Shown: positions 10,885 to 56,507 of the stretch, piece after piece
Layout of the letters: the number at the start of each line of letters is the position of its first letter
How positions within the stretch are numbered: position 1 is the first letter of the stretch
The notes under the pieces: generated by a model
Told to the model about the DNA's origin: nothing
Seen by the model: the letters and a program-made list of their open reading frames with translations, nothing else
Database searches by the model: none
NCBI RefSeq assembly: GCF_029948125.1
Contig: NZ_JASAMB010000013.1
Coordinates: 1 to 64,000, forward strand
Reading direction: 5' to 3'
From: Catellatospora sp. KI3
GTDB lineage: Bacteria > Actinomycetota > Actinomycetes > Mycobacteriales > Micromonosporaceae
Length of the DNA stretch: 64,000 nt
Position numbers and translations under genes: made by a program

Positions 10885-13686
10885 CTTGGGCAAACCCCAG
10901 TTCGTTCCACTGCTGGTGTGGTCAGAGTGCGACGGGAGGCTGGGCAGCCCCGGATCGTACAGCGGGTAGTGGTCCTGGCAAATCCACAAGTACGATCCGC
11001 TCGGATCCTGGACCCTGCGAAGCCCGCCGAAATATTGATTCTTATCCAGATCGAACAGCAGTGCCCGCAGGCCACGTAAGGCGTGCCCTTCGGCAGGTGT
11101 GAGCTGGCTATCGCTTAAGGGAGCCTCCGATTCTGTAGCCGCGCCCGGATCACTCGGCAAGTAATGGACGACCTCTTCCATCAATTCAACCTTCGCCTTA
11201 ACGGCATCCATGTTCCAGTCCGAGGTGAAGGAAAAGAGTCCAGTGCTGGCCACGGTCGTTGCTATTTTCAATGACTTCGCGATGAATCGCAGGTATGGGG
11301 CGATGCCGATAACCCAGCCCTTCGGCAGCTCTATTTTGTAGAAGGTATCAAGCGGGTGCCAGCAATCACTGTGCTCACACCACAGTGTCAGCTCGTAGCT
11401 CAAGGTTGTCGAATATACGCGATTAAGTCCCGCTGTGGGCGTCAAGGTCATTAGCCGCGGGCAATCGGAAACCTCGGTTCCGATGGCTTTGATCACGCGC
11501 CGCATTGCATGAGCCATGTCGGCCACGTGGCCTTCAATCTTGGCAAGGCGTCTGGTCAACTTGGACAATTCCCTCACGAGGGAAGATTTAGGGGCAAATC
11601 CCGTCAAGAGCCCAGCTATATCGTGTTGCTCGAAACAGTACGGGCAACGTATGGATTGGTCGCCCATGTTGAGAAAGATTCCCAGTGCCTTTAGAGGAAA
11701 ATCGCCTTTGCACGGCCCATCTGTGGGACATGGGACCCTCAGCTCATACCCGAGTCCGGGCCAACGTAAGCAGATGACGTCCTCGATGCTGTCTCGGAGA
11801 ACGTTGAACATCAAGTCCGGCGAGGGCGCACGCACCTCCAGTTCAACTGTCGTTGATGTCGACTGCTCGATCAGAGCTTCCGAAGCGTAATCGGCGATCG
11901 GATGGCGTAAAAAGATTCCGTTGCGCCAATGCATATTGACGGAACTGCGGTGATGCCTCACGGTGAGCCAAGAGATAAGGCCGGGAGCGCTCTCGCTCAT
12001 CTTGCAAGTTATGCGCAATGCTCGGTGTCCGTCATGTGGGGCACCGCCTCGTTCCCACGGCAATAGCGGTTTTTCGTATGGAACGAGCTGCGCCACAAGG
12101 CTTCGATCAGTATCTGGGAGTCGATAGCATACTTCGAACTTCTCCATTAGGCGTAGGAAGTACGGGTGATAGCTCTCGGCGTAGCCGCTCCGGTCCCCCG
12201 TGCTCCAAAGTTCGTATAACCTGGCGTGGTCGAGAACTCCGAGGTTGTCGCGAGTAAGCGTGTCCTCCAGAATTTTGCCGATCGCTTTGGTAAGCCATTC
12301 AGGATTGAGTACCACAACGTCGCGGAGGCCCTCGTCCGACGAGTAATGAACGATCTGCCCAAGGTCGTGAAGCCATTCTGCAACGGTTCGTGCCTCCCCC
12401 GGGTCAAGTACTGAGTTCTGAGTGCAGATACCGACAAAACGCTCGAACGAGATCTGAGGATCTGTGGCAGCAAGCCCTAGGATTTGATCGCGTATGGACC
12501 CCCATCTCGAGCTGACTTTCTGGCCCACCTGAGGTAACGCTGATGCGCTTTCAGCTATAAGGGCTCGAAGGTCACTGATGCCGGTTCCCGTTTTGCTGTC
12601 AATCTCAGCTCGCCTGAGGTTTAGGTCGCTGAAGGCGACTTGGAGGCTTGCAAAATCTATCTCTGCTCGCCTGGTATCGCAGTGAGTAGATACTACGATA
12701 ATTGTGGCCCCTGCGCCGACACGCAGTCGAATGCGCCTAATCCATGACTCGACCGCGTCCTGTTCGACGCCTTCACGGGGATTCCACGCTAGTACGAAAA
12801 GGGAGCGTTGGCCGAAAAAGAACTGGTGAGTGATGCGGTATACTTCTTGTCCGCCGAAATCCCATGTATGCAAGGTCAGTCTATTGCCCGTACCGGCGTG
12901 TTTAACCTCGAAGGTGTCGATCTCTATGCCGTGAGTAGTCTCTCGGTTTTCGACAAATGGTTCCCCTCGTAAAGCGGCCAAAAGAGAGGACTTTCCGACA
13001 TTTCCTTCTCCGACAATCTGGAGCTTCGCCTCGAAGGTCTCAACGGCGTCGTCAAGGGCGGCAACATAATGTGCCAACGCCTTCTGCCCGCGTGCCACGA
13101 GCTGCGGTATGGGGTCAGGCAAAGGGTTACTTTCGAGCCTTACTAGCTTTGAGGACGCTAGTAGAACGGCGGCTCGACTCGGTAGGTGACTAATGAAATT
13201 ATGCCGGAGGTCGATGGTATGTAACTGCCGCATCGATCCAAGTTCGAGCGGGATGTTCCGCAATCGGTTATCCTGAAGATCCAATTCTTGAAGAAAGTCG
13301 AGGCTAAACAGCTCGGAGGGTAAATCAGAAATTAAGTTTTCTGCCAAGATAAGCACTTTGAGGTTCTTTAGCATGCCGATTTCTGTGGGAAGGCTTGTGA
13401 GCCTATTGCCCGATAGATCGAGATATTCGAGATGGGTTAGCCGGCCGATCTCGGAGGAGAGATCGCAGAGCTCGTTGAAGCTCAGGTCCAAGCTTGTGAC
13501 GCGCGAACCGTCGCTCGCTAAGCTCCCGATCCCTAACGGCAGCTGCAACAGCTGGCGTGATTGAAGGCCGAGACTGCCGCCACGGATCATGCTGCGAAGC
13601 GCGTCGACGGTGAGAAGCCCATCGGAATTTTCCGTCACGAGGTCCGATGCTAGTTCAGACTTCGGGCGCTGCTTTCGGCCTGTCAT
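10882..13686 (-). CDS. Bacterial ROCO protein (LRR-Roc-COR GTPase)
   Basis: A 934-aa multidomain GTPase. Residues ~60-195 hold about six leucine-rich repeats (LEYLDLSGNRLTSLP, LQELDLQDNRLRNIP and similar). The Roc GTPase follows: G1 GEGNVGKSS at 226-234, G3 WDFGGQE at 275-281, G4-like STHCD at 333-337 and G5-like SKTGTG at 364-369. Residues ~400-650 fit COR, including FVGICTQNSVLD and VVVLNPEWLTKAI. A Cys cluster follows (C653, C659, CPYC at 681-684), a possible zinc site, then an unrecognised C-terminal region of ~240 aa. Codon and base composition are visibly less GC-rich than the neighbouring genes, indicating horizontal transfer. It lies alone between IS remnants, so it is cargo. Partner and role are unknown; bacterial ROCO proteins dimerise through COR and cycle with GTP. 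Confidence 0.9.
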   Translation of the reverse strand: MTGRKQRPKSELASDLVTENSDGLLTVDALRSMIRGGSLGLQSRQLLQLPLGIGSLASDGSRVTSLDLSFNELCDLSSEIGRLTHLEYLDLSGNRLTSLPTEIGMLKNLKVLILAENLISDLPSELFSLDFLQELDLQDNRLRNIPLELGSMRQLHTIDLRHNFISHLPSRAAVLLASSKLVRLESNPLPDPIPQLVARGQKALAHYVAALDDAVETFEAKLQIVGEGNVGKSSLLAALRGEPFVENRETTHGIEIDTFEVKHAGTGNRLTLHTWDFGGQEVYRITHQFFFGQRSLFVLAWNPREGVEQDAVESWIRRIRLRVGAGATIIVVSTHCDTRRAEIDFASLQVAFSDLNLRRAEIDSKTGTGISDLRALIAESASALPQVGQKVSSRWGSIRDQILGLAATDPQISFERFVGICTQNSVLDPGEARTVAEWLHDLGQIVHYSSDEGLRDVVVLNPEWLTKAIGKILEDTLTRDNLGVLDHARLYELWSTGDRSGYAESYHPYFLRLMEKFEVCYRLPDTDRSLVAQLVPYEKPLLPWERGGAPHDGHRALRITCKMSESAPGLISWLTVRHHRSSVNMHWRNGIFLRHPIADYASEALIEQSTSTTVELEVRAPSPDLMFNVLRDSIEDVICLRWPGLGYELRVPCPTDGPCKGDFPLKALGIFLNMGDQSIRCPYCFEQHDIAGLLTGFAPKSSLVRELSKLTRRLAKIEGHVADMAHAMRRVIKAIGTEVSDCPRLMTLTPTAGLNRVYSTTLSYELTLWCEHSDCWHPLDTFYKIELPKGWVIGIAPYLRFIAKSLKIATTVASTGLFSFTSDWNMDAVKAKVELMEEVVHYLPSDPGAATESEAPLSDSQLTPAEGHALRGLRALLFDLDKNQYFGGLRRVQDPSGSYLWICQDHYPLYDPGLPSLPSHSDHTSSGTNWGLPK

Positions 13687-43300: not shown

Positions 43301-44763
43301 TGCGTATCGTCCTGGTCCCGCTCGACGACCGCCCCGCCTGCGCCCGGCTGCCACAGCTGGTCGCCGCCGTGGCCGGCGCGCGGATGTCGCTGCCGCCGCG
43401 GCCGGTCCTGCCCGACTACCGCCAGCCCGGCGACGCCGCCTCCATCGCCCGCTGGCTGGCCAACACCCCCGCCGACGCCACGGTCGTGTCCCTGGAGACG
43501 CTGGGCTTCGGCGGCCTCATCGCCTCCCGCATCGGCCGCGAGCACGCCCGCGACGTGCTCGGCCGCTGGTCGGTGCTGTCCGGGCGGACCGGGCGCACCC
43601 ACGCCGCGACCGTCGTGCAGCGGACCCCCGACGCCGACGACGCCGCGGAGGAACCCGCCTACTGGGCCGAGCACGGGCGGGCCCTGCACGCCTACTCCGC
43701 GCAGCTGCACCGGGCGCTGCGCGACGGCACGCCCCAACCGGACCGCGACGCGGTCCCGGCCGAGGCCCGCCGCGACTTCCTGCGCCGCCGCCACCGCAAC
43801 CACCTGCTCAACCAGCACGCACTGGCGATGGCCGCCGACGGCACCGTCGCCACCCTCGTCATCGGCGCCGACGACACCGCCGCCGACGCGGTCGGCAGCG
43901 CCGAATGGCACTGGCTGCAGACCTGGGCCCGGTGGCTCGAACCCGACGGGCAGGTCCTGTCCCACCCCGGCGCCGACGAGATCGGCACCGCCCTGACAGC
44001 CCGCGCCCTGGCACAGCACGCCCGCATCACCCCCCAGATCGAGGTGACCTGCGCCGACCCCGCCGGACTGGCCCGCACCGCCGCCTACGAACCCGTCCCG
44101 GTCGGCCAGGGAGTCGCCAGCCAGATCACCGCCGCAGGCGGCGTCGTCACGACCGGCGGCACCGGCCCCGTCCTGGTGGTACACGCGCCGCAGCCCGGCG
44201 GACACGACTGGGCGGTGGCGCCCCCGCCCGCCGCCGACCGCAGCGCCGCCGAGGCGACCGCCGCCCTGGTCGGGCGGCTCATCACCGCCGGGCGGACCGT
44301 GGCCCTGGCCGACTGCGCCCACCCCAACGGCGCCGACCCGGCCCTGCTCGAACTGCTGTGCGCCGACGGCACCCTGTCCAGACTGGCCGGGTTCGCCGGC
44401 TGGAACACCGCCGGCAACAGCATCGGCACCGCCGTGGCGCACCTGGTCGCCGTCCTCGCCGGAAAGGCCACCGGGACGTTCGACAGCACCGCCCACCAGC
44501 GGCTGCTCGCCCACCGCGTCGCCGAGGACCACTGCTACATGTCCCACGCCCGCGCACGGGTCCGAGCACAGATCGGCGCCGACCCGACCCGCCACGACCA
44601 CATACCCGCCGGAACAGACGTCCCCGCCCGGATCGAACACGCCGTCACCGAACGCTGGCAGCAGCTCGACCCGGTCCCCGGATGGCGGGTACGCACGGGC
44701 AGCGTGACCCTGCCCTGGCAGCGCACCTTCGAAATCGACCTGGACGTGGAGAAAGACCGATGA
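43297..44763 (+). CDS. DUF4127 family protein
   Basis: A 488-aa protein. The opening RIVLVPLDDRPACARLPQLVAAVAGARM and the central VIGADDTAADAVGSAEWHWLQ, plus GWNTAGNSIGTAVAH, are hallmarks of DUF4127. The family has no proven function known to me but recurs in bacterial carbohydrate loci; conserved Asp and His residues suggest a metal-dependent enzyme. It has no signal peptide and is coupled to both neighbours by ATGA overlaps, so it should act in the cytoplasm in the same pathway. Confidence 0.85.
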   Translation: MMRIVLVPLDDRPACARLPQLVAAVAGARMSLPPRPVLPDYRQPGDAASIARWLANTPADATVVSLETLGFGGLIASRIGREHARDVLGRWSVLSGRTGRTHAATVVQRTPDADDAAEEPAYWAEHGRALHAYSAQLHRALRDGTPQPDRDAVPAEARRDFLRRRHRNHLLNQHALAMAADGTVATLVIGADDTAADAVGSAEWHWLQTWARWLEPDGQVLSHPGADEIGTALTARALAQHARITPQIEVTCADPAGLARTAAYEPVPVGQGVASQITAAGGVVTTGGTGPVLVVHAPQPGGHDWAVAPPPAADRSAAEATAALVGRLITAGRTVALADCAHPNGADPALLELLCADGTLSRLAGFAGWNTAGNSIGTAVAHLVAVLAGKATGTFDSTAHQRLLAHRVAEDHCYMSHARARVRAQIGADPTRHDHIPAGTDVPARIEHAVTERWQQLDPVPGWRVRTGSVTLPWQRTFEIDLDVEKDR

Positions 44764-46436
44764 CCATCACCGCCGACGTCGCCGTCATCGGCGGCGGCAT
44801 GGGCGGCGTCGCCGCCGCGCTGGCCGCCGCCCGCGCCGGAGCCACCGTCGTGCTCACCGAAGAACTCGACCGCATCGGCGGCCAGATCACCACCCAGCTG
44901 GTGTCGGCGCTCGACGAGCACCCCCACGTCGAACACTTCGGCGTCTCCGCCTCCTACCGCCAGCTGCGCGACCGCGTCCGCGCCGCCTGCGGCGCCGACG
45001 ACAACCCCGGCGGCGGCTGGGTGAGCCGCCTCTGCTTCCCGCCCGCAGTGGGCCAGGAGGTGATGGAGCAACTGCTGGCCGAGCACGGGGTACAGGTCAG
45101 GCTCGGTATCGCACCCGTCGCCGCAGCCCGCCACGGCGACACGATCACCTCCGTGGAGTTCGACGACGGCAGCCGACTGACCGCTGCCGTGTTCATCGAC
45201 GCCACCGAACGCGGCGACCTGCTGCCGCTGTCCGGCGAAGAGTGGATCGTCGGGTCGGAGGGCTTCGACGCGTTCGCCGAGCCGTACGCGGTGCCCGGCG
45301 GGCCCGACCCGCAAGCCCAGCAGTCGTTCACCTGGTGCGCGCTGCTGACCTACCACCCCGAGCACGACACCGACGACCCCGGCCCCGCACCGGCCGGATA
45401 CCAGCGGCTGCGCGAGCACTGCGGCCTGGACATCGCCGGCTGGGACGGCGGCGTGCACCGCTACCGCATGTTCACCGAGGGCCCGGACGGCAAACCGCCG
45501 TTCTGGACCTACCGGCGGCTGCGCACCGCGCAGCCCGAACTGATCGTGCTGAACTGGGCCAGCAACGACTGCGCCGGATACGACCCCATCGGCGACCCGC
45601 ACGGCGCCGAGCAGGCCGGACGGGAGCTGACCGCCGCGTTCATCCACTGGCTGCGCACCGAGGCCCCCCGCGAGGACGGCGGCCGCGGCTACCCCGGCCT
45701 GCGTCCCGCCCCGCACGAGGCGGGAACCCCCGACGGCTACGCCGCCGCCGCGTACCTGCGCGAATCGCGGCGCCTGCGCCACGACCAGCCCGTCACCGGC
45801 CATGACCTGCTGCCGGTTCCCGGACGGGCCCGTGCCCGGCACCTGCCCGGCTCCGTCGGCGTGGCCTGGTACCACATCGACCTGCACGAACGCACCGGCC
45901 ACCCGGAGCCGGTCTACCAGCAGACCGCTCCGTTCACGATCCCCGCCCACGCCCTGACCGGATCGGTCACCAACCTGGTCATGGGCGCCAAGAACCTCGC
46001 CGCCACGCAGATCGCCGCCGCCGCATACCGGGTCCACCACGGCGAATGGGCCGTCGGTGAGGCCGCAGGCGCGATCGCCGCCGTCGCCTGCGCCGCCGGA
46101 GTGTCGGCCCGCCACGTCGTCAACTCCCCGGCGCTGCTGGCCACCGTTCAGCACGACCTCGTCCGCCACGGCGCCCCCCTGGCCTGGATCGCCGACATCC
46201 CCGCCGAAGACCCCCTGTTCACCGCCGCGCACCTGCTCGCCGCGTACGGGGGCCTGGAAGCCGACCTCGCCGCCGACCTGAACCTGCGACCCGACGACGA
46301 ACCCGGCACCGCCGACGCGGCGGCCCTGGCCGCGGCGGCGACAGCCCTGCGGCGTGCCCTCGACCTGCCGGCCACGGCCGGGTCAGACGGAACCTGGCGG
46401 GAACGCGCCATGGCGGCGCTGGCGGGCCTGCGGTGA
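44760..46436 (+). CDS. FAD-dependent oxidoreductase (FAD_oxidored type)
   Basis: A 558-aa flavoprotein. The FAD-binding Rossmann motif is VAVIGGGMGGVAAALAAARAG, with the acidic TEE that follows, and GGQITTQLVSALDEHP and FIDATERGDLLPLSG are typical of the PF12831 family. The later NLVMGAKNLAATQIA is the second FAD contact. It lies between DUF4127 and NanE with overlapping ends, so a redox step in glycan breakdown is implied. No electron acceptor partner is seen. Confidence 0.88.
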   Translation: MTITADVAVIGGGMGGVAAALAAARAGATVVLTEELDRIGGQITTQLVSALDEHPHVEHFGVSASYRQLRDRVRAACGADDNPGGGWVSRLCFPPAVGQEVMEQLLAEHGVQVRLGIAPVAAARHGDTITSVEFDDGSRLTAAVFIDATERGDLLPLSGEEWIVGSEGFDAFAEPYAVPGGPDPQAQQSFTWCALLTYHPEHDTDDPGPAPAGYQRLREHCGLDIAGWDGGVHRYRMFTEGPDGKPPFWTYRRLRTAQPELIVLNWASNDCAGYDPIGDPHGAEQAGRELTAAFIHWLRTEAPREDGGRGYPGLRPAPHEAGTPDGYAAAAYLRESRRLRHDQPVTGHDLLPVPGRARARHLPGSVGVAWYHIDLHERTGHPEPVYQQTAPFTIPAHALTGSVTNLVMGAKNLAATQIAAAAYRVHHGEWAVGEAAGAIAAVACAAGVSARHVVNSPALLATVQHDLVRHGAPLAWIADIPAEDPLFTAAHLLAAYGGLEADLAADLNLRPDDEPGTADAAALAAAATALRRALDLPATAGSDGTWRERAMAALAGLR

Positions 46437-47137
46437 CCGAGACGACCATGACCAGCCCACCCCTGCTGACCGCGCTACGCGGCGGACTCGTCGTCTCCTG
46501 CCAGGCCGAACCCGGCGAACCCCTCGACGATCCGGCGCACATGACCGCGATGGCCCTGGCCGCCCGCGCCGGAGGCGCGGTCGGCATCCGCGCCAAGGGT
46601 CTGGCCGACATCGCCGCCATCCGGGCCGCCACCAGCGGCGTACCACTCATCGGCCTGGTCAAACGCGGCCGCCACGGCGTCTACATCACCCCCACCGTCG
46701 CCGACGCGCTCGCCGTCGCCGAGGCCGGGGCCGACATCGTCGCCATCGACGGCACCGACCGGCCCCGCCCCGACGGGCTCACCCTGGCCCAGACCGTCGC
46801 CGAACTGCGCCGACACGGCATCCTGGTCATGGCCGACGTCGCGACCGAAGCCCAGGCCCTGGCCGCCCAGGACGCCGGCGTCGACATCGTCAGCACCACC
46901 CTGTCCGGCTACACCGGGACTCGCCCGCCGCCGACCGACCCAGACCTCGACCTGGTCGCCCGGCTCGGGCAGGTGCTGACCGTCCCGTTCGCCGCCGAAG
47001 GCCGGTTCCACACCCCGCAGCAGTGCGCCCACGCGCTGCGCCTGGGCGCCCACACCGTCGTCGTCGGCACCGCCATCACCCGCCCGTCGCACATCACCGC
47101 CAGGTTCGCCGCCGCACTGCGCCAGGAGCACCAATGA
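46433..47137 (+). CDS. nanE: N-acetylmannosamine-6-phosphate 2-epimerase
   Basis: A 234-aa TIM-barrel enzyme that interconverts ManNAc-6P and GlcNAc-6P. Conserved parts are RGGLVVSCQAEPGEPLDDP, GIRAKGLADIAAIR, PLIGLVKR, ADIVAIDGTDRPRP, MADVATEAQALAAQDAGVDIVSTTLSGYT and VPFAAEGRFHTPQQ. Lys in LIGLVKR and Glu in AAEGR are the expected catalytic residues. GTG at 46433 overlaps the preceding stop. It makes ManNAc-6P, and so a ManNAc-containing substrate, central to this operon. No NanA lyase is present. Confidence 0.9.
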   Translation: MTETTMTSPPLLTALRGGLVVSCQAEPGEPLDDPAHMTAMALAARAGGAVGIRAKGLADIAAIRAATSGVPLIGLVKRGRHGVYITPTVADALAVAEAGADIVAIDGTDRPRPDGLTLAQTVAELRRHGILVMADVATEAQALAAQDAGVDIVSTTLSGYTGTRPPPTDPDLDLVARLGQVLTVPFAAEGRFHTPQQCAHALRLGAHTVVVGTAITRPSHITARFAAALRQEHQ

Positions 47138-49617
47138 CCACCCTGCACGTCGTCAACCACGTCCACTGGGACCGCGAGTGGTACCGGCCCATGGAGGCGT
47201 TCCGCGCCCGCCTGGTCGAACTCGTCGAGCAGGTGTGCGACGCCCTCGACGACGGCCGGCTGCCGTCGTTCCACCTCGACGGCCAGACCATCACCGTCAC
47301 CGACGTCGAAGCGGTCGACCCCGGCCTGGCGCAGCGCGTCCGCCGGCACGCCCGCGACGGCAGACTGTCGATCGGCCCCTGGCACGTACTGGCCGACAAC
47401 CAGCTCGTATCCGGCGAGAACCTGATCCGCAACCTGCTGACCGCACGCAGGATCGCCGACGGAGACGGCCTGGCCACGGTCGGCTACTGCCCGGACTCGT
47501 TCGGCCACCCGGCCGATCTGCCGCGCATCCTCAACGGATTCGGCCTGGACACCGCCCTCGTATGGCGCGGCGCCCCACCCCAGCACGCCCGATTCCGCTG
47601 GCGCTCCCCGGACGGCTCCGAGGTGTACGCCGTCAACCAGTGCTACTACGAACCCGACGTGCTGTGGGAGGAGGACGGCATCGGCCGGCGCGTCGCCGAC
47701 TACACCGCCAAGCAGCGGCAGCGGGCAGGCGACGGCCCGCAGCTGCTGCTCAACGGAGCCGACCACCTCGCGCCCGCACTGAACCGCGCGACCGCGGGCC
47801 TGACCCACAGCACCCTCGCGCAGTTCTTCGCCGACCCCGCCCACGACCGGCAAGGCGCACCCCTGGTCGAAGGAGAGCTGCGCTACCCGGGCGGCTGGTT
47901 GACGTTCCTGCTACCGGGGACCCTGTCCGCACGGATGTACCTCAAACAGGCCAACGCCGCGGCGCAGACGCTGCTCGAGTCATGGGTGGAGCCGTACCTC
48001 GCCCAGACCGCACCGACCGCGGCCACGACCGGACTGCTGCGCCACGCCTGGCAGCTGCTGCTGGCCAACAGCCCGCACGATTCGATCTGCGGCTGCTCGG
48101 TCGACGAGGTCCACCGCGAGAACGAAGTCCGCTTCGAACGCGTCGAACAGGTCGGCGAGCACCTGCTGCAACGGGCGCTGCAGCAGCAGGGGTACGACAC
48201 CCGGCTCTACGGAGAGCCGTCAGCCGACACGCTCAGCCTGATCGTCGCCAACCCGCACGCCCGTCCGGTCAGCGGCCCGGTGGAGCTCGACGTCCACAGC
48301 GCCCCCGGCCGCCACATCGTCGGGCTGCGCACCGACGACGGCTCCGACGTACCCTTCGAAGCCGGCCCGCCGGTTGACACACCGCTGTTCTGCGCGGACC
48401 TGGACCTGCCGCCCGACACCAGACCCGCGGCCAGGCACCGGCTCGCCTTCGTCGCCGAGGTCGGGCCGTCCGGCAGGCGCGGCTACCAGGTGATACTCGG
48501 GGATGCGCCTGCCGCCGGCGCCACCGCACCGGCCGCACACCCGTGGCGGGTAGAGGTCGCCGCCGACGCGTCACTGACCCTCACCGACACCCGCACCGGC
48601 CGGACCCTGCCCGGGCTCGCGCGGCTCGTCGACGAGGGCGACGCCGGCGACACCTACAACTTCGACCCACTGCCCGGCGACCAGGCGACGAGCCCCACCG
48701 TGTCGGCGGTACGCCACACCGCCTCCACGGTACGGCAGGTGTGGCACATCGACGCCGCCCTGGACATCCCCCAAGGGCTCACCGGCGACCGGCAGGCCCG
48801 CAGCCCGCAGCGGGTCAGCATGCCGATCCGCCTGACCGCGACCCTCTGGGCCGGCATCGAACGCCTGGACTGGACAGCCGCCTTCGACAACACCGCAGAC
48901 GATCACCGCCTGCGCGCGCACTTCGCCACCGGCCCGGCCGACCACTGGTCCGCAGACACGCACTTCTCGGTGCTGCACCGGCCCCTGTCGGAACCCATCG
49001 GGGCCCTGCCCACCGAACGGGCCCATGAAGCCGAATGCGCGGTCGCGCCCGTGCACACCTGGGCCGCGGCCGGCGGCGTCGGAGTCGTCGTCGCCGGACT
49101 GCCCGAGGTGCAGGGACTGCTGCCCGCACAGGCGCCGCAGATCGCCGTGACCGTGCTGCGTGCCACCGGCTGGTTGTCGCGCCCGGACCTGCGCTCGCGT
49201 ACCACCGGAGCCGGCCCGCAGCTGCCCACACCGCAGGCCCAGTGCCGCCGGCCGGTTCAGGCTTCCGTCTCGGTGGCGCTCGACACCGGTGAAGGCGCCA
49301 TGGCGGTGACCGCCGCGGAAGTCCGGGCACCGCTGCGGGCGTGGCAGCTGCGTTTCGCAAGCCCCGTGCCTGCCGCCGCGACCGGGCTGGCTGTGGCCGG
49401 GGCGATGGTCACCGCGTACAAGCCGGCCGATGACGGGGACGGAGCAGTGCTGCGGTTGCTGAACCCCACGGCCGAGCCGGTGACCGCCCGGATCGCGGGC
49501 CTGGACGGACAGGCCGTCACCGAATGCACCCTGGCAGAGCAGCCGGTGGTCGGCGAGGTGGACACCGCCGCGCTGCAGCTGGGGCCGTACCAGCTGCGAT
49601 CGCTGCGGCTGCGGTAG
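47134..49617 (+). CDS. GH38 alpha-mannosidase (MngB-like)
   Basis: An 827-aa glycoside hydrolase family 38 enzyme. The zinc-binding start HVHWDREWY, the nucleophile region GYCPDSFGHPADLPRIL and the metal site NSPHDSICGCSVDEVH are all intact. The C-terminal half is the beta-rich GH38C region. There is no signal peptide, so it acts on imported or phosphorylated mannosides; its closest described type by motif is MngB, which hydrolyses mannosylglycerate-type substrates. It closes the operon and is followed by a terminator. Confidence 0.92.
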   Translation: MTTLHVVNHVHWDREWYRPMEAFRARLVELVEQVCDALDDGRLPSFHLDGQTITVTDVEAVDPGLAQRVRRHARDGRLSIGPWHVLADNQLVSGENLIRNLLTARRIADGDGLATVGYCPDSFGHPADLPRILNGFGLDTALVWRGAPPQHARFRWRSPDGSEVYAVNQCYYEPDVLWEEDGIGRRVADYTAKQRQRAGDGPQLLLNGADHLAPALNRATAGLTHSTLAQFFADPAHDRQGAPLVEGELRYPGGWLTFLLPGTLSARMYLKQANAAAQTLLESWVEPYLAQTAPTAATTGLLRHAWQLLLANSPHDSICGCSVDEVHRENEVRFERVEQVGEHLLQRALQQQGYDTRLYGEPSADTLSLIVANPHARPVSGPVELDVHSAPGRHIVGLRTDDGSDVPFEAGPPVDTPLFCADLDLPPDTRPAARHRLAFVAEVGPSGRRGYQVILGDAPAAGATAPAAHPWRVEVAADASLTLTDTRTGRTLPGLARLVDEGDAGDTYNFDPLPGDQATSPTVSAVRHTASTVRQVWHIDAALDIPQGLTGDRQARSPQRVSMPIRLTATLWAGIERLDWTAAFDNTADDHRLRAHFATGPADHWSADTHFSVLHRPLSEPIGALPTERAHEAECAVAPVHTWAAAGGVGVVVAGLPEVQGLLPAQAPQIAVTVLRATGWLSRPDLRSRTTGAGPQLPTPQAQCRRPVQASVSVALDTGEGAMAVTAAEVRAPLRAWQLRFASPVPAAATGLAVAGAMVTAYKPADDGDGAVLRLLNPTAEPVTARIAGLDGQAVTECTLAEQPVVGEVDTAALQLGPYQLRSLRLR

Positions 49618-49883: not shown

Positions 49884-50816
49884 TCACCAGTGTGCCGCAC
49901 CCGCGAACGAGGTCGGCGTGGGGCGGTAGCCGAGCTGGTCGCGGGCCGCGGTGATGTCGAGGGTGCGTTCGACGGCCAGGTGGCTGATCGCGTAGCGGGT
50001 CAGCCGGGGCGGGCGCGGGTACCGGACCAGCCGGTACAGCGCCTCGACGACGGTCGCCGGCAGCCACACCGCGCGCAGCGGCAGGTACACCGGGTGGGCG
50101 GTGATACCGCGGGCGGCCAGGATGGCGCGCAGCGAGTCGTCGAGCGGCACCGGTGCGGCGTCGGTGACGTTGAAGACGCCTCGCTCGACCGGCCCGCACG
50201 CGGCGAGCACGCAGGCCTGCGCGAGGTTGCCGACCGAGGTGAGGCTGATCAGCTGCCGCCCGTCGCCGACCGCGGGCAGCCACCGGCCGCGTACCGCGGC
50301 CAGCACCCGGGGCAGCAGCGTGGGGTCGCCGGGTCCGTAGATCGCGTGCGGGCGCAGCACGATCGCGGGCCGGTCCGCGGTGCTCACCACCCGCTCGGCC
50401 GCGGCTTTGGACTCGCCGTAGGCGTTGAGGTACCGGCCGACCGGGGCCAGGTGCTCGGCCGCCATGACCGTGGGCCGCCGGGGGTCGTACACGCTGGCGG
50501 TGCTGACGTGCACGAACCGTACCCCCGGCCAGGTCGCCAGGGCGTTGGCGGTCCCGCCGACGTTGACGGCGAAGAACTCCCGGCGCGGCCCCCAGTCGGA
50601 GACGGTGCCGGCGCAGTGCACCACCGCGTCCACCGGCGGCGGGTCCGCGAGCGGGCCGCCCGTCAGGTCCCACTGCCGGTACCGGGCCGCGCCCAGGTGG
50701 CCCGGCCCCGGCGACGGGCGGCGGCCGAACCCGACGACCTCGTGCCCCGCACCGGTCAGCGCCCGGCACACGGCCCCGCCGACGAAACCGGACGCCCCGG
50801 TCACCGCGATCCTCAC
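49884..50816 (-). CDS. NAD(P)-dependent SDR/3-beta-HSD-type reductase (OleD-like)
   Basis: A 310-aa extended SDR. The nucleotide motif is VTGASGFVGGAVC, the catalytic Ser/Tyr/Lys are in VSTASVY and YLNAYGESKAAAERV, and IVLRPHAIYGPGD is typical of extended SDRs such as 3-beta-HSD and OleD. In OleD-type pathways this class reduces a 2-alkyl-3-keto acid to the beta-hydroxy acid. GTG at 50816 overlaps the AMP ligase stop (GTGA). It is the last gene of the five-gene operon, and its substrate is inferred only from neighbours. Confidence 0.8.
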   Translation of the reverse strand: MRIAVTGASGFVGGAVCRALTGAGHEVVGFGRRPSPGPGHLGAARYRQWDLTGGPLADPPPVDAVVHCAGTVSDWGPRREFFAVNVGGTANALATWPGVRFVHVSTASVYDPRRPTVMAAEHLAPVGRYLNAYGESKAAAERVVSTADRPAIVLRPHAIYGPGDPTLLPRVLAAVRGRWLPAVGDGRQLISLTSVGNLAQACVLAACGPVERGVFNVTDAAPVPLDDSLRAILAARGITAHPVYLPLRAVWLPATVVEALYRLVRYPRPPRLTRYAISHLAVERTLDITAARDQLGYRPTPTSFAGAAHW

Positions 50817-52345
50817 CGGACGACCACCTCCGCGACCAGCTCACGCAGGGCCGCCCGGTCGATCTTCTGGCCACGTCCGCCGCGGGGCAGCCGGGGCAGC
50901 ACGACGATGTCGTCGGGCAGCGCGTCGTGGTCGATGACCCCCGGCAGGTCACGGCGCAGCCGGGCGGGCAGGACGGCGGCCGCGGCGGGCCCGTCGGCGA
51001 CCACGGCGAGTACCACCCGCTCGTCGCCGTGCTCTGCGTCGGGCACCCCGACGTACGCGGCCTCCGCGACGCCGGGCAGCGCGGCGACCGCCGGTTCGTA
51101 CAGTCCGGGATAGAGGTTGAACGAGCCGCGGATCAGCATGTCCTTCTTGCGCCCGAGCAGCACCAGGCGGCCGGCCTCGTCGACGCGGGCCAGGTCGCCG
51201 GTGGGCAGCCAGGGCGTCGGCGGCTCACCGAGGTAGCCGGGGCTGCGGTTCGGCCCGGCCAGCAGCAGCTCCCCGTCGGCCGCGACGCTGACCTGCACCC
51301 CCGGCAGCGGCTCGCCGAGCAGGTCGCCGGTCGCGCCGCCCGCGACGTGGGCGATCTTGTCGGCGGCGGTGGCGATCGCGACGGGCAGCATCTCGGTCAT
51401 CGCGTACACCGACAGCACCTCGGCGGGCCCGGCGGCGGCGACCGCCCGGCGCAGCACCCCGGCGGGGGCGGGCGCGGAGCCCAGCAGGATGTGCCGCAGG
51501 CTCGACGGCAGCGGGCCGGTCGCCGCGTCCAGGACCTCGGCCAGCCGCACCGGCACGCAGTACGTGTGGGTGGCCCGCCGCTGCCGCAACTGCTCCCGGA
51601 ACAGCGCCGCGCCGCCGGTCAGCGGCGGCAGCGACCAGCGCGCCCCGGACGCGAGCGTGGGCAGGCCCAGCATCAGCTGGTCGGTGTGCACGACGTCGCC
51701 GGGGCCCAGCGGCACCCGCTCGCGCAGCAGCCCGAGGGCCGCCGACAGCGATCCGGCCGTGTGCACCACCGCGCGCGGATGCGCGGTGGTGCCGGAGGTG
51801 AAGATGACCGCCGCCGGCGCGTCCGGGTCGGCGACCGAGTCGGGCTCGGCGGGCGGCATCCTGAGCAGCCTGTCCAGCGACAGCGCGCCCCGGGGCACGC
51901 CGGGCAGCCACCGTCCGGTGCGGATGTGACGGGCCACGTCGAGGGTGGACAGGTTCGGCAGCAGCAGGCCCCGGCGGCGGGCGTACGCCCGGACGGGCGC
52001 CAGCCGGCTCGCCGCGTACAGCAGGGACTCGGCGGCCGACCAGCGCGGGCGGGCCAGCCGCATGCGGGCGGTGAACATCTCCGGGCCCGCCCCCGGGTCG
52101 GCGAAGATCACGCAGCCGCCGGCGGCGACCACGGCGATGGCCAGCACCAGCGACTCCGGCGACGGCCGCACCGAGAACAGCACCCCGTCGCCGGGCCGCA
52201 GCCCGTGCTCGCGCAGTCCGTGGCGCACCGCCAGCACCTGCCGGCGCAGCTGCCCGTAGGTCAGCTCCGCGCCGTCGCCGGCGACCAGGGCCACCGCCGA
52301 CGGAGTCCGCGACGCCTGCGCGAGCACCTGCTCCACCAGGCTCAT
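50813..52345 (-). CDS. Acyl-AMP ligase / OleC-like adenylating enzyme
   Basis: A 510-aa ANL superfamily enzyme. The P-loop is IFTSGTTAHPRAVVHT (Arg where Lys is usual), A5-like region YAMTEMLPVAIA, A7 TGDLARVDEAGRLVLLGRKKDMLIRGSFN and the C-terminal catalytic Lys region GGRGQKIDRAAL. OleC-type enzymes use this fold to turn beta-hydroxy acids into beta-lactones; fatty acid activation is the alternative. ATG at 52345 overlaps the P450 stop as ATGA. Distinguishing the two needs structural or phylogenetic comparison. Confidence 0.78.
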   Translation of the reverse strand: MSLVEQVLAQASRTPSAVALVAGDGAELTYGQLRRQVLAVRHGLREHGLRPGDGVLFSVRPSPESLVLAIAVVAAGGCVIFADPGAGPEMFTARMRLARPRWSAAESLLYAASRLAPVRAYARRRGLLLPNLSTLDVARHIRTGRWLPGVPRGALSLDRLLRMPPAEPDSVADPDAPAAVIFTSGTTAHPRAVVHTAGSLSAALGLLRERVPLGPGDVVHTDQLMLGLPTLASGARWSLPPLTGGAALFREQLRQRRATHTYCVPVRLAEVLDAATGPLPSSLRHILLGSAPAPAGVLRRAVAAAGPAEVLSVYAMTEMLPVAIATAADKIAHVAGGATGDLLGEPLPGVQVSVAADGELLLAGPNRSPGYLGEPPTPWLPTGDLARVDEAGRLVLLGRKKDMLIRGSFNLYPGLYEPAVAALPGVAEAAYVGVPDAEHGDERVVLAVVADGPAAAAVLPARLRRDLPGVIDHDALPDDIVVLPRLPRGGRGQKIDRAALRELVAEVVVR

Positions 52346-53493
52346 CGGCACACCACCAGCTCCCGGTAGGTCGGGATCAGCACGCCCCGGGCGGCGCGGC
52401 GGCGCACGATCCGCAGCGGCGCGGCGGCCAGCACAGCTGTGGCCACCGCCCGGATCTCGGCCATCGCGAGCGGGTAGCCGATGCAGAAGTGCGGACCCGC
52501 CCCGAACCACAGCCGCCGCAGCTCCGGCGGGTGCGGCCGGTCCAGGTCGAACGGCCCGTACGCCTGGCAGCAGTTGTGCGTGGCCAGCAGCACCCGGTCC
52601 CCGGGCCGGACGGCCACCGGGCCGATCGCGGCCGGGGCGTGCACGCTGCGCAGCATCACCGGCGTCGGGGTGCTGACCCGCATCGCCTCATCCACGGCCG
52701 GGTCCAGCAGTGTCAGGTCGGCGGCGACCCGGTCCAGGTCACCGGCGTCGTGCAGCAGCGCGATCAGGCGCGGCACTAGCGTGGCGACGGTTTCGGTGCC
52801 GGTGAGGAAGAACGCGCCCGCCGCGCCGCGCGCCTGCTCCTCGGAGATGCCCAGCGCCCGCATCCGGCCCATCACGGTGGCCTCGTCCCCGGCGCGGTAG
52901 GCACGCGCGGCGACGTCGCCGACGGGCTCCAGGACCTCGCGGGCGCGGCGGGCCTGGGCGGGGGACAGGGTCCGGGTGCGCAGGGTCACCATCGACACGA
53001 TCTGCTCGCCGCGGTGGAACATCCGCCGGTGGTCGTCCTCGGAGCGGGAGTCCAGCCCGACGACGGCGCAGATGACCGCCCCCGCCATCACCCGCATCGC
53101 GTCGACCAGATCCACCGGCTCGCCGCGGCCCAGCCGGGCGGACAGCTGCGCCAGCGGCCCGGCCAGCACCCGCTCGCACAGCCGGTCGGCGTAGCCGGGG
53201 GTGAACAGTTCGGCCAGCCGCCCGCGCAGCGCCCGGTGCGCCGGACCCTCCATGTTGAGCAGCACCGACGGGCCCAGGATCGGGGTCCACAGGTCACCCG
53301 ACGAGCCGGGGCCGTCCTTGCGGAACGTCTCGCCGTCCAGCAGCACCTGCCGGGCCAGGCCAGCGTCGTTGACGACGACGCCCAGACCGGGCACCCGCAC
53401 CACCGGACCGCGCCGGGCCAGCAGCCGCAGCAGCGGGTACGCGAACGGGTGCGCGCGCCGGTACAGCCGGCGCTCCCAGGTCCCCGGGTTCAC
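52342..53493 (-). CDS. Cytochrome P450 (biosynthetic operon)
   Basis: A 383-aa bacterial class I P450. The I-helix oxygen site is FFLTGTETVATL, the ExxR pair lies in VDEAMRV, and the heme-binding loop is FGAGPHFCIGYPLA, all intact. GTG at 53493 starts the typical RLYRRAHPFAYPLLRLLARRGPVVRVPG N-terminus and overlaps the glycosyltransferase stop. No ferredoxin or reductase is encoded nearby. It resembles the divergent P450 at 55320 in its N-terminal region (RAHPFAYPLLRLLARRG against RAGNPALWTLLTLGR), possibly paralogues. Confidence 0.9.
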   Translation of the reverse strand: MNPGTWERRLYRRAHPFAYPLLRLLARRGPVVRVPGLGVVVNDAGLARQVLLDGETFRKDGPGSSGDLWTPILGPSVLLNMEGPAHRALRGRLAELFTPGYADRLCERVLAGPLAQLSARLGRGEPVDLVDAMRVMAGAVICAVVGLDSRSEDDHRRMFHRGEQIVSMVTLRTRTLSPAQARRAREVLEPVGDVAARAYRAGDEATVMGRMRALGISEEQARGAAGAFFLTGTETVATLVPRLIALLHDAGDLDRVAADLTLLDPAVDEAMRVSTPTPVMLRSVHAPAAIGPVAVRPGDRVLLATHNCCQAYGPFDLDRPHPPELRRLWFGAGPHFCIGYPLAMAEIRAVATAVLAAAPLRIVRRRAARGVLIPTYRELVVCR

Positions 53494-54239
53494 CGGATGT
53501 CCACCCGGTCGGGGGTGTAGCGGTGGTCGGCGTACCAGGCCAGGGTCCCGACCAGGCCGTACGCGCGCAGCCGCCGGACCGAGCCGTGCACCAGCACGTC
53601 GCGGCGCAGGCCGTAGGCGCCGGTGAGCCGCCGCACCCGGTTGACCAGGGCCCGGTCCTCGTGCACGTCCTCGATCCGGGTACGCGGGAAGCCGCCCGCC
53701 GCCTCGTACAGCTCGGCCGTGATGGCCAGGTTGCAGCCGGGCATCATCACGTACGGGCCGACGTACGCCCGGTCGCGGTTGCCGGGCCGGAACCGGCCGA
53801 ACGCCGCCGCGACCGACACCACGGCGGGCAGCAGCCGCCGCTCCCACCAGCGCAGCGGAAACTCGTCGGCACGGGGCCGCAGCGGGCCGCTCAGCATCCG
53901 CAGCCCGTCGCCGAAGCCGCGGCGCACAGCGGCGACCCAGCCCGGCGCGGGCAGGCAGTCGGCGTCGGTTCGAGCCAGCAGCGTCGCACCGTGGGCGATC
54001 GCGTACCGCATCCCGGTGTCGGCCGCCGCGCCCGTGCCCTTCACCGGCTCGGTGATGACGTGCAGGTCCAGCCGGTCGGCGAACCCGGCGGCGACCGCAG
54101 CGGTGCCGTCGGTGCTGGCGTTGTCGACGACCACCACGGTGAACGCCGAGTCGGTCTGCTCGGTCAGCCGGTGCAGCGTCGCCCCGATCGAACGCTGCTC
54201 GTCGTACGCCGGGATGACGACCCACAGCGGGTGGCCCAT
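53490..54239 (-). CDS. GT2 family glycosyltransferase
   Basis: A 249-aa GT-A fold glycosyltransferase. It has WVVIPAYDEQRSIGATLHRL, VVVDNASTDGTAAVA, the DXD-like TDADCLP and GCNLAITAELYEAAGG, followed by RIEDVHEDRALVNRVRR. There is no membrane anchor. ATG at 54239 overlaps the KAS III stop by one base (TGATG). Its presence among lipid-like biosynthetic genes suggests glycosylation of the product, or of a sugar/lipid carrier; acceptor and donor are unknown. Confidence 0.88.
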   Translation of the reverse strand: MGHPLWVVIPAYDEQRSIGATLHRLTEQTDSAFTVVVVDNASTDGTAAVAAGFADRLDLHVITEPVKGTGAAADTGMRYAIAHGATLLARTDADCLPAPGWVAAVRRGFGDGLRMLSGPLRPRADEFPLRWWERRLLPAVVSVAAAFGRFRPGNRDRAYVGPYVMMPGCNLAITAELYEAAGGFPRTRIEDVHEDRALVNRVRRLTGAYGLRRDVLVHGSVRRLRAYGLVGTLAWYADHRYTPDRVDIR

Positions 54240-55240
54240 CACAGCTCCGCGAACATGACGCCGAGGCTGACCCCGCCGGCCAGGCCGATCAGCGCCACCC
54301 GGTCACCGGGCCCGCACCGCCCGTCCTGGATCGCGGTGGCCAGCTGCAACGGCAGCGTGACGCTGGCCAGGTTCCCGTGCTCGGGCAGCGTCACGACGAG
54401 CCGGTCGGCCGGCACGCCCAGCCCGGCGCGCAGCTGCTCCAGGTACGGCAGCGCCACCTGATGCACCGCCACCACGGCGAAGTCGTCCCAGCTCAGGCCG
54501 GTGTCGCCGAGCGCCTCCAGGAACAGCCGGGCACCGTTGCGGACGAACACATCGCGCAGCCGCCGCCCGTCGCCGCTGAAGAAAGTCGCGTCGAGGTCGC
54601 GCGGGCGCATCGTGCCGCCCGCCGGCAAGGTGCCCACGTCCCAGGCGGTGGAGTCCGCGGCGAAGCGCCGGTGGAAGATCCCTCCCGAAGCGGCCGCCTC
54701 CAGCAGCATCGCCGCCCCGCCGTCGGACAGGGTGTACCCGGCGAACGCGTCGACGAACTGGGCGCGGTCGCGCACCTGCCAGCGGATCGCGCGGGAGGGC
54801 ACCTCCCCCGAGCAGACCAGCACCCGCCGGTGCTGGCCGGTGACGATCAGCGCCTCGGCGAGCTGCACCGCGTTCAGGAAGCTGTTGCAGGCGTTCTTCA
54901 CGTCGAACACCGGGCAGCTCGCGCCGAGCTTCGCGGCCACGATGTGCGCGGTGGCGGGCTCGATCAGGTCCTGCGACGCCGAGCCGAACACGATCAGGTC
55001 CACCTCGGACACGCCCAGGCCCTGCCCGGCCAGCAGCTTCTCGGCCGCGGCCACGGCCAGGTCGGAGGCCTGCACGTCGTCGGCGGCGTAGTGCCGGTGC
55101 CGGATGCCGGTCAGCCGCTCCACGATGGAGGCGTGCGGCACGAACCCCGGGCTGTGCTCGGCGATCCGGCGCTCCACCTGCGCGCTGCTGACAAGCACCG
55201 GCGGCAGGTGCGCCTCCACCCCGACGATCCTGGCTCTCAT
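54239..55240 (-). CDS. 3-oxoacyl-ACP synthase III-type condensing enzyme (OleA/FabH-like)
   Basis: A 333-aa KAS III. The catalytic Cys is in DVKNACNSFLNAVQLAE, His in VVAVHQVALPYLEQL and Asn in EHGNLASVTLPLQL, so the triad is intact. It has features of non-FabH KAS III: VFGSASQDLIEPATAHIV and a long variable loop. OleA uses this fold to join two acyl-CoAs head to head. ATG at 55240 follows GGAGGTGGG. It is the first gene of the operon, 79 bp from the divergent P450 start. Chain length and substrate (CoA or ACP) are not predictable. Confidence 0.85.
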   Translation of the reverse strand: MRARIVGVEAHLPPVLVSSAQVERRIAEHSPGFVPHASIVERLTGIRHRHYAADDVQASDLAVAAAEKLLAGQGLGVSEVDLIVFGSASQDLIEPATAHIVAAKLGASCPVFDVKNACNSFLNAVQLAEALIVTGQHRRVLVCSGEVPSRAIRWQVRDRAQFVDAFAGYTLSDGGAAMLLEAAASGGIFHRRFAADSTAWDVGTLPAGGTMRPRDLDATFFSGDGRRLRDVFVRNGARLFLEALGDTGLSWDDFAVVAVHQVALPYLEQLRAGLGVPADRLVVTLPEHGNLASVTLPLQLATAIQDGRCGPGDRVALIGLAGGVSLGVMFAEL

Positions 55241-55319
55241 CCCACCTCCTGCACGGCCGGGCCGCCCAGCAGCGTCCCGGCATGGCCTACCATTCGTGCA
55301 CGGTAGTCGGAGGGCGAAA

Positions 55320-56507
55320 ATGCTTCACGGTCTGGTGACAGAACACGCACACGCCCGCCGGCACGAGGCCCGGTTGCTGCGAGCGGGCAACCCGGCGCTG
55401 TGGACGCTGCTGACCCTGGGCCGCGTGCTCGGGCCGATAGTGCGGCTGCCCCGGCTCGGCTGGGTGGTGACCGACCCGGTGCTGTCCCGGCGCATCCTCA
55501 ACGATCCCTCGTTCAGCATGGTGGGCGAGGGCGGTGTCGGCGACCTGTGGGGTCAGCTGTTCGGAGCCGAGTTCGCGTCGTTCTTCGCCGGAGCGCGCCA
55601 CGCCGAGCTGCGCTCGCTGGCCCGGGACCTGTTCACCGAGGACAGCGCCCGCCGGCTGGTCGACCGGGTGCAGGGTCCGCACCACGCGCGGCTACGCGCC
55701 CGCCTGGCGGCCGGCGAGGAGGTCGACCTGGCCGCCGTGGTCCGCACCACGTCGGCGTACACGGTCGCCGACCTGCTCGGGGTGGCCGTCTGCGACGACG
55801 AGGCCGCGCTGGCGCTGTTCGCCTCCGCCGAGCGGCTGGCGGCGCTGGCGCTGGGCACGCAGGCTTCCACGGCGCTCGCGCCGGAGGTGATCGCCAAGGC
55901 GGGCGGGCTGGTCGACGCGATCACCGCCGACGTCGAGCGGGCCTACCGCACCGGTGGGCCGGACACCCTCCTGGGCCGCTGCCGAGGTCTGGGCCTCGGG
56001 CTCGACCTGGCGAAGGGGCTGACAACGCTGCTGGTCATCGCGGGGACCGAGACCGGCGCGTCGTCGCTGACCCGGACCGTGGCGCTGCTGCACGACACCG
56101 GCCAACAGCACCGCCTGCTGGCCGACGCCGGGCTCACCGCCAACGCGGTGCGTGAAGGCCTGCGGGTCACCACGCCCGCGCCGGTGATCGGGCGGCACAT
56201 CGCCCGGGACACCGAGACCGCCGGGCGGCGGCTGCGCCGCGACGGCCGGGTGATGATGCTGACCTACGTGGCCGACAACAAGGCGGGCCCGTTCGACATC
56301 ACCCGGCAGTACATGCCGGAGACCCGGCAGCTGTGGTTCGGCGCCGGCCGGCACCTGTGCCTGGGCGCGGCGGTGGCGCGGGTGCAGCTGACCCGGCTGC
56401 TGGAGGCTCTGACCGCCGACGGGCGGCCGTGGCAGGTGGTGTCCCGGGCTCCCGCGCGGCGGGTGCTGGTGCCGACGTACGAGTCACTGCGCATCCGCAC
56501 CGCCTGA
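55320..56507 (+). CDS. Cytochrome P450 (divergent from biosynthetic operon)
   Basis: A 395-aa P450. Motifs are LLVIAGTETGASSL (I-helix), VREGLRV (ExxR) and FGAGRHLCLGAAVA (heme loop). ATG at 55320 follows GGAGGGCGAAA, an excellent site. It is transcribed away from the KAS III operon, sharing a 79-bp promoter region, so it most likely modifies the same product. Similarity to the P450 in that operon is visible at both ends, including the shared RRVLVPTYESL and RGVLIPTYREL tails. Confidence 0.9.
   Translation: MLHGLVTEHAHARRHEARLLRAGNPALWTLLTLGRVLGPIVRLPRLGWVVTDPVLSRRILNDPSFSMVGEGGVGDLWGQLFGAEFASFFAGARHAELRSLARDLFTEDSARRLVDRVQGPHHARLRARLAAGEEVDLAAVVRTTSAYTVADLLGVAVCDDEAALALFASAERLAALALGTQASTALAPEVIAKAGGLVDAITADVERAYRTGGPDTLLGRCRGLGLGLDLAKGLTTLLVIAGTETGASSLTRTVALLHDTGQQHRLLADAGLTANAVREGLRVTTPAPVIGRHIARDTETAGRRLRRDGRVMMLTYVADNKAGPFDITRQYMPETRQLWFGAGRHLCLGAAVARVQLTRLLEALTADGRPWQVVSRAPARRVLVPTYESLRIRTA

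Follow-up and report, generated by a model that had tools for sequence, protein, structure and literature searches.

An OleA-type gene cluster of Catellatospora sp. KI3 and its relatives as a candidate source of oxidised, glycosylated beta-lactones

What would a bacterium assemble with an OleA-type ketosynthase, a glycosyltransferase, an AMP-dependent ligase, an OleD-like reductase and two cytochromes P450 encoded side by side? This question is raised by a locus of Catellatospora sp. KI3 found in the first 64,000 nucleotides of contig NZ_JASAMB010000013.1, the whole stretch being called the window here. Its six genes lie within positions 49884-56507, where an earlier note on the same DNA had placed them, and the overlapping five-gene operon described there was confirmed by the coordinates. 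The five genes are transcribed from the minus strand in the order KAS III, GT2, P450 a, AMP ligase and SDR, with a 4-bp overlap at each of the four junctions, and P450 b is divergent from them, with 79 bp between it and the start of the KAS gene. All six proteins scored above the Pfam cut-off in the families by which they are named.

The earlier note took this combination to be undescribed, which does not hold. In Smith et al. 2020 (PMC7064751), Actinoplanes atraurantiacus is described as encoding OleA, glycosyltransferase, OleC, P450 and OleD domains; its genome yielded no oleB candidate, and the authors propose that the product is a glycosylated beta-lactone. The same enzyme set and the proposal of such a product were already in print. 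It is also stated there that the OleA of A. atraurantiacus was active on p-nitrophenyl hexanoate and that, with little protein recovered, no reaction occurred with C8-C16 acyl-CoAs (PMC7064751). By gene content and order, as described, both regions share these five enzymes and lack oleB; however, A. atraurantiacus has the order OleA-GT-OleC-P450-OleD with one P450, compared to KAS-GT2-P450-ligase-SDR and a second P450 in the window. The cluster is a variant of a described gene set, with a different order and a second P450. Micromonosporaceae loci of the A. atraurantiacus order (L019, L280-L285 and L289-L291) were used as stand-ins for it, being presumably of the same kind.

Regarding other known systems, the lipstatin and nocardiolactone clusters resemble the window in employing OleACD-type enzymes without OleB, leading to beta-lactones (PMC7064751, PMC7413640). 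The lipstatin pathway is unlike the window in its LstA/LstB heterodimer. The actinobacterial oleABCD olefin operons possess an OleA, a ligase and an SDR related to those of the window, but OleB is part of them, either as a separate protein or as an oleBC fusion, whereas none was found in the genome of the window. To our knowledge, neither the lipstatin nor the nocardiolactone cluster has a GT2-P450 operon of the window's form. In addition, among open-licence papers, searched by titles and abstracts, no further paper was recognised that names a product of this cluster or treats it more fully.

The association of these genes is not due to chance. When named genomes were scanned with a KAS alignment, 361 of 432 candidate stretches were confirmed, and the best 80 of the 361 loci were retained, the sample being therefore biased to close relatives; the closest named KAS proteins belong to six Catellatospora species, with 84-96% identity. 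The five genes occur together as a complete operon in 75 of these 80 best named loci, having identical order and strand in 74 and an inverted ligase in L061. In two of the five incomplete loci (L044 and L083), the contig is short and stops inside the operon, and in the other three (L029, L079 and L099), the rest of the operon is missing though the sequence continues. L029 retains the KAS with P450 b adjoining, and L079 and L099 are reduced natural forms, with KAS and ligase only in the former and KAS, P450 and SDR only in the latter, which is without ligase and GT2. Of the 80 loci, 43 have P450 b at an identity of at least 45%, and in 41 it is located upstream of the operon and divergent from it. 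The flanking families in a crude gene call vary with the genus and give no extension of the cluster beyond six genes; therefore, the unit was taken as the five operon genes and P450 b.

When the ligase was searched across the order, matches at an E-value of 1e-60 were found in 6 of 150 genomes, the own genome included. The KAS of L019, searched in the same way, gave matches at 1e-60 in 108 of 354 Micromonosporaceae genomes: 97 at 64-100% identity and 11 at 45-47%, the latter being of the window's kind, and nine of them belonging to its genus (11 genomes of that genus). The gene surroundings were taken for 12 of the 108 genomes, where ten loci have the order KAS-GT2-ligase-P450-SDR and two (L287 and L288) that of the window, L288 and L041 being probably one genome. 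Six of these ten possess a second GT2 after the ligase and three have one GT2; the tenth, L286, has this same order with no GT2 and is a further reduced natural form. The gene order seen in the window, accompanied by a second P450, is new together with its spread across the sampled named genomes, as are the zero to two GT2 copies among clusters with the other gene order. In the cluster of a relative, L018, a FabF-like ketosynthase is encoded immediately upstream of the KAS (11434-13086, minus strand).

The first enzyme of the operon, KAS III (54239..55240, minus strand, 333 aa), had been proposed to be an OleA, and the proposal withstood a tree with FabH. Its Glu94 aligns with the catalytic glutamate of OleA; in the X. 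campestris enzyme, Glu117 is described as a base provided by the other subunit and essential to condensation (PMC7064751). All 33 tree rows of the cluster and of OleA have the glutamate, compared to 0 of 22 FabH rows, and in the 57-row tree the 22 FabH rows are split at 100/100 from those 33. A FabH identity is rejected on the basis of this tree, and the grouping with FabH that the earlier note had considered did not occur. The tree has some very long branches; in it, the cluster clade is sister to the sampled canonical OleA, not inside it, and joins the OleA copies of L137-L142. It was built with L023-L102 sampled at approximately every seventh plus a few chosen, omitting L014 and L016, which are duplicates, and also L009 and L015, which repeat the window itself. 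A separate FabH is encoded elsewhere in the genome (C7, 329 bits, above the cut-off). The window KAS is under every NCBIfam cut-off (PRK09352, 175; PRK09258, 165; FabH, 146 bits), and on PRK09258 a canonical OleA reached 406 bits and the OleA of L139 just 148; in sequence searches with the window KAS, FabH structures rank above OleA structures. As judged from sequence, the catalytic glutamate and the tree support its identity as an OleA.

It could be argued that such an OleA uses substrates other than two fatty acyl-CoAs, for example, a starter and an ACP-bound or short acyl unit, leading to a different small lipid. We regard this as improbable. The enzyme of A. atraurantiacus, hydrolysing p-nitrophenyl hexanoate and inert with C8-C16 acyl-CoAs, would agree with it, although the protein was scarce in that assay (PMC7064751). 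The KAS kin of L137-L142 also point this way, as they are located in clusters of which two were inspected, and both contain polyketide synthase domains; however, the catalytic glutamate of OleA is retained. Those of L137-L140, from other actinomycetes, are 42-43% identical to the window KAS and accompanied by OleC and OleD, and in L137 and L139 a large ORF beside OleA has DH, MT, ER-like, KR and carrier domains, so that this type can be called a polyketide-OleACD cluster.

Whether a lactone formed by these enzymes would be converted further depends on OleB, whose absence the earlier note had claimed. Ten genomes were searched with the OleB region taken from an oleBC fusion, resulting in 119-626 bits in five genomes with ole genes, where 626 is the query itself. 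No OleB was found in the own genome (8.2 Mb in 96 contigs, estimated to be 100% complete), where the best match has 33.6 bits and is a hydrolase with an internal stop, and two relatives of the genus gave no match at an E-value of 1e-6. The absence is thus borne out genome-wide, with the five genomes as positive controls, and because of it an olefin is unlikely as the product. An olefin hydrocarbon pathway would need an OleB encoded elsewhere, for which that single weak match could be invoked, but true OleBs reached at least 119 bits in the same search, and P450 and GT2 genes would be ill-suited to a membrane hydrocarbon, making this reading exceedingly improbable.

The AMP-dependent ligase (50813..52345, minus strand, 510 aa, with PF00501 and PF13193) was assigned to OleC in the earlier note, and here the trees agree and the other features do not. 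In a first tree, from which L009-L014, L103-L132 and L183 were left out because they are duplicated or short, the cluster ligases form their own clade on the OleC side at 99/94, and L178, a dihydroxybenzoate-AMP ligase, adjoined the cluster and OleC at 96/80. A second, wider and quick tree, comprising 24 of 30 fetched acyl-CoA ligases, 13 of 29 own-genome AMP enzymes, 13 of 22 cluster-type rows and 14 of 16 OleC rows, placed the ligase with OleC at SH-aLRT 90, and with this set, a single clade of the cluster ligase and the fatty acyl-CoA ligases was rejected (p-AU 0.013). In the third (L178, L159, L175, L182 and ten acyl-CoA ligases removed, five rows added) and the fourth (eleven rows removed, six FAAL-like proteins added), the cluster ligases are a sister clade of OleC, not inside it, at 100/98, a value reached after the row removals in unrooted trees with narrow sampling. 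The trees thus place the cluster ligase with OleC and apart from the fatty acyl-CoA ligases, the FAAL-like proteins and the NRPS domains that were sampled, with MenE, 4-coumarate-type, NltC, LstC and proteobacterial OleC proteins lying outside the sampling. The six FAAL-like proteins, bearing the PF23024 C-domain that we take to be the mark of FAALs, form a separate 100/100 clade beside the NRPS domains and without the cluster ligase, so the grouping with FAALs raised in the earlier note did not occur. Membership in either the fatty acyl-CoA ligases or the FAALs is unsupported by these trees.

Ligases of the window's clade were also seen in L020 (6694-8385), L021 (6982-8622) and L022 without KAS, GT2 or SDR nearby; of the five partner proteins, a single weak match to a P450, in L020, was all that these surroundings gave, and the crude gene call revealed no nameable partner.

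Alongside the same OleA and OleD-like core, the ligase could instead act as a CoA ligase, either providing acyl or hydroxyacyl-CoA or recycling it, the product being then an open, glycosylated and hydroxylated branched hydroxy acid, that is, a glycolipid with no lactone. The motifs GRKKD and YPGLYEP, present in 18 of 19 cluster rows, give a CoA-ligase-type hinge that agrees with this reading, unlike the GRxxH and GRxSE hinges of the OleCs compared. Likewise, the PF13193 C-domain is matched by the ligases of the window and L018, as by a fatty acyl-CoA ligase, with no match in the three OleCs examined; however, the L019 ligase has no match either. All 11 solved structures matched by the ligase profile at an E-value of 1e-30 or better are CoA synthetases by name, including two entries of a malonyl/benzoate-CoA ligase chimera. 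Moreover, PRK06187 ranks above the OleC-type NCBIfam model PRK09274 for this ligase (153 and 132 bits), which fails the cut-off of 478 of the latter. Five OleCs scored 323-625 bits on PRK09274, three of them passing (528-625) and two oleBC fusions reaching 323-330, and six own-genome AMP enzymes, of which four are plain fatty acyl-CoA ligases, obtained 226-446 on PRK06187; by these scores, the ligase is equally far from OleC and from fatty acyl-CoA ligases. Nevertheless, PRK06187 outranks many models in the OleCs too, and at 139-159 bits they are matched, not exceeded, by the ligase, which the trees place on the OleC side and not among the fatty acyl-CoA ligases. A CoA ligase without ring closure is, in our estimation, rather unlikely. 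Since the trees stand against the models, hinge and C-domain, beta-lactone closure by this enzyme is considered plausible. A ligase clade beside OleC bearing CoA-ligase features is new in itself.

The SDR (49884..50816, minus strand, 310 aa) was likewise considered an OleD, and two OleD models are by far its best in NCBIfam (147 and 139 bits, the next being 62). Nonetheless, it is below the cut-off of 580, which none of 394 actinomycete genomes reaches, and in a 40-row tree with very long outgroup rows it is outside the clade of 15 sampled OleDs (96/97), two long own-genome SDRs being placed among the cluster rows. The sequence supports it as OleD-like and no further.

P450 a (52342..53493, minus strand, 383 aa) and P450 b (55320..56507, plus strand, 395 aa) have weak and partial matches to PF00067 (37.7 and 29.0 bits, cut-off 22.8), and the haem-cysteine, ExxR and I-helix motifs were read by eye in both; among the relatives of P450 a, the haem motif is found in 79 of 80 and ExxR in 77 of 80. 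The GT2 (53490..54242, minus strand, 250 aa; PF00535, 71.7 bits) has relatives with a D-x-D string, a loose pattern, in 79 of 79 cases. Compared with solved structures, the P450s and GT2 gave distant relatives alone and no hint of a substrate.

Considering these enzymes, KAS III would catalyze, as expected for a member of OleA, the non-decarboxylative Claisen condensation of two acyl-CoAs into a 2-alkyl-3-oxo acid, whose 3-oxo group would be reduced by the OleD-like SDR. Then, one or both P450s may hydroxylate the alkyl chain and the GT2 would attach a sugar, the order of these four steps being a prediction too. The AMP ligase would adenylate the 3-hydroxy acid and most likely close the beta-lactone like OleC, this being the least certain step. 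As OleB is absent, the lactone would not become an olefin, and the predicted product is an oxidised, glycosylated beta-lactone.

For this OleA-initiated beta-lactone route, we find the balance to be even. The identity of OleA, the lack of a detected OleB and the conserved motifs are supported by sequence, and the route is favoured by the KAS glutamate and FabH split, the ligase position with OleC, the missing OleB and the conservation in 75 of 80 loci, as well as by the same proposal for A. atraurantiacus. Against it stand the PRK09274 score, CoA-ligase-like hinge and PF13193 of the ligase, the SDR outside the OleD clade, the FabH structures outranking OleA, and the reported inertness on acyl-CoAs of the A. 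atraurantiacus OleA, of which little protein was available. In addition, neither a ligase nor a GT2 accompanies the KAS, P450 and SDR of L099.

Should ring closure be the role of the ligase, glycosylated beta-lactones would be products of many actinomycete genomes; this class is reactive, and inhibitors of lipases and of the proteasome belong to it. Beta-lactone synthetases would then also be broader than current models allow. Should the ring stay open, the beta-lactone predicted in the literature for such clusters needs correcting. Tentatively, the ligase clade might constitute a separate, second family of beta-lactone synthetases, keeping a CoA-ligase-type hinge and C-domain, by which rare actinomycetes could make an unreported class of beta-lactones that are glycosylated and oxidised by P450s, the number of GT2 genes being 0, 1 or 2 depending on the lineage. 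Next to the cluster, the window carries genes for an FAD oxidoreductase domain, a NanE-type epimerase and a family 38 glycosidase domain (43905-49617, plus strand), a set that resembles sugar catabolism and is separate from the lipid cluster.
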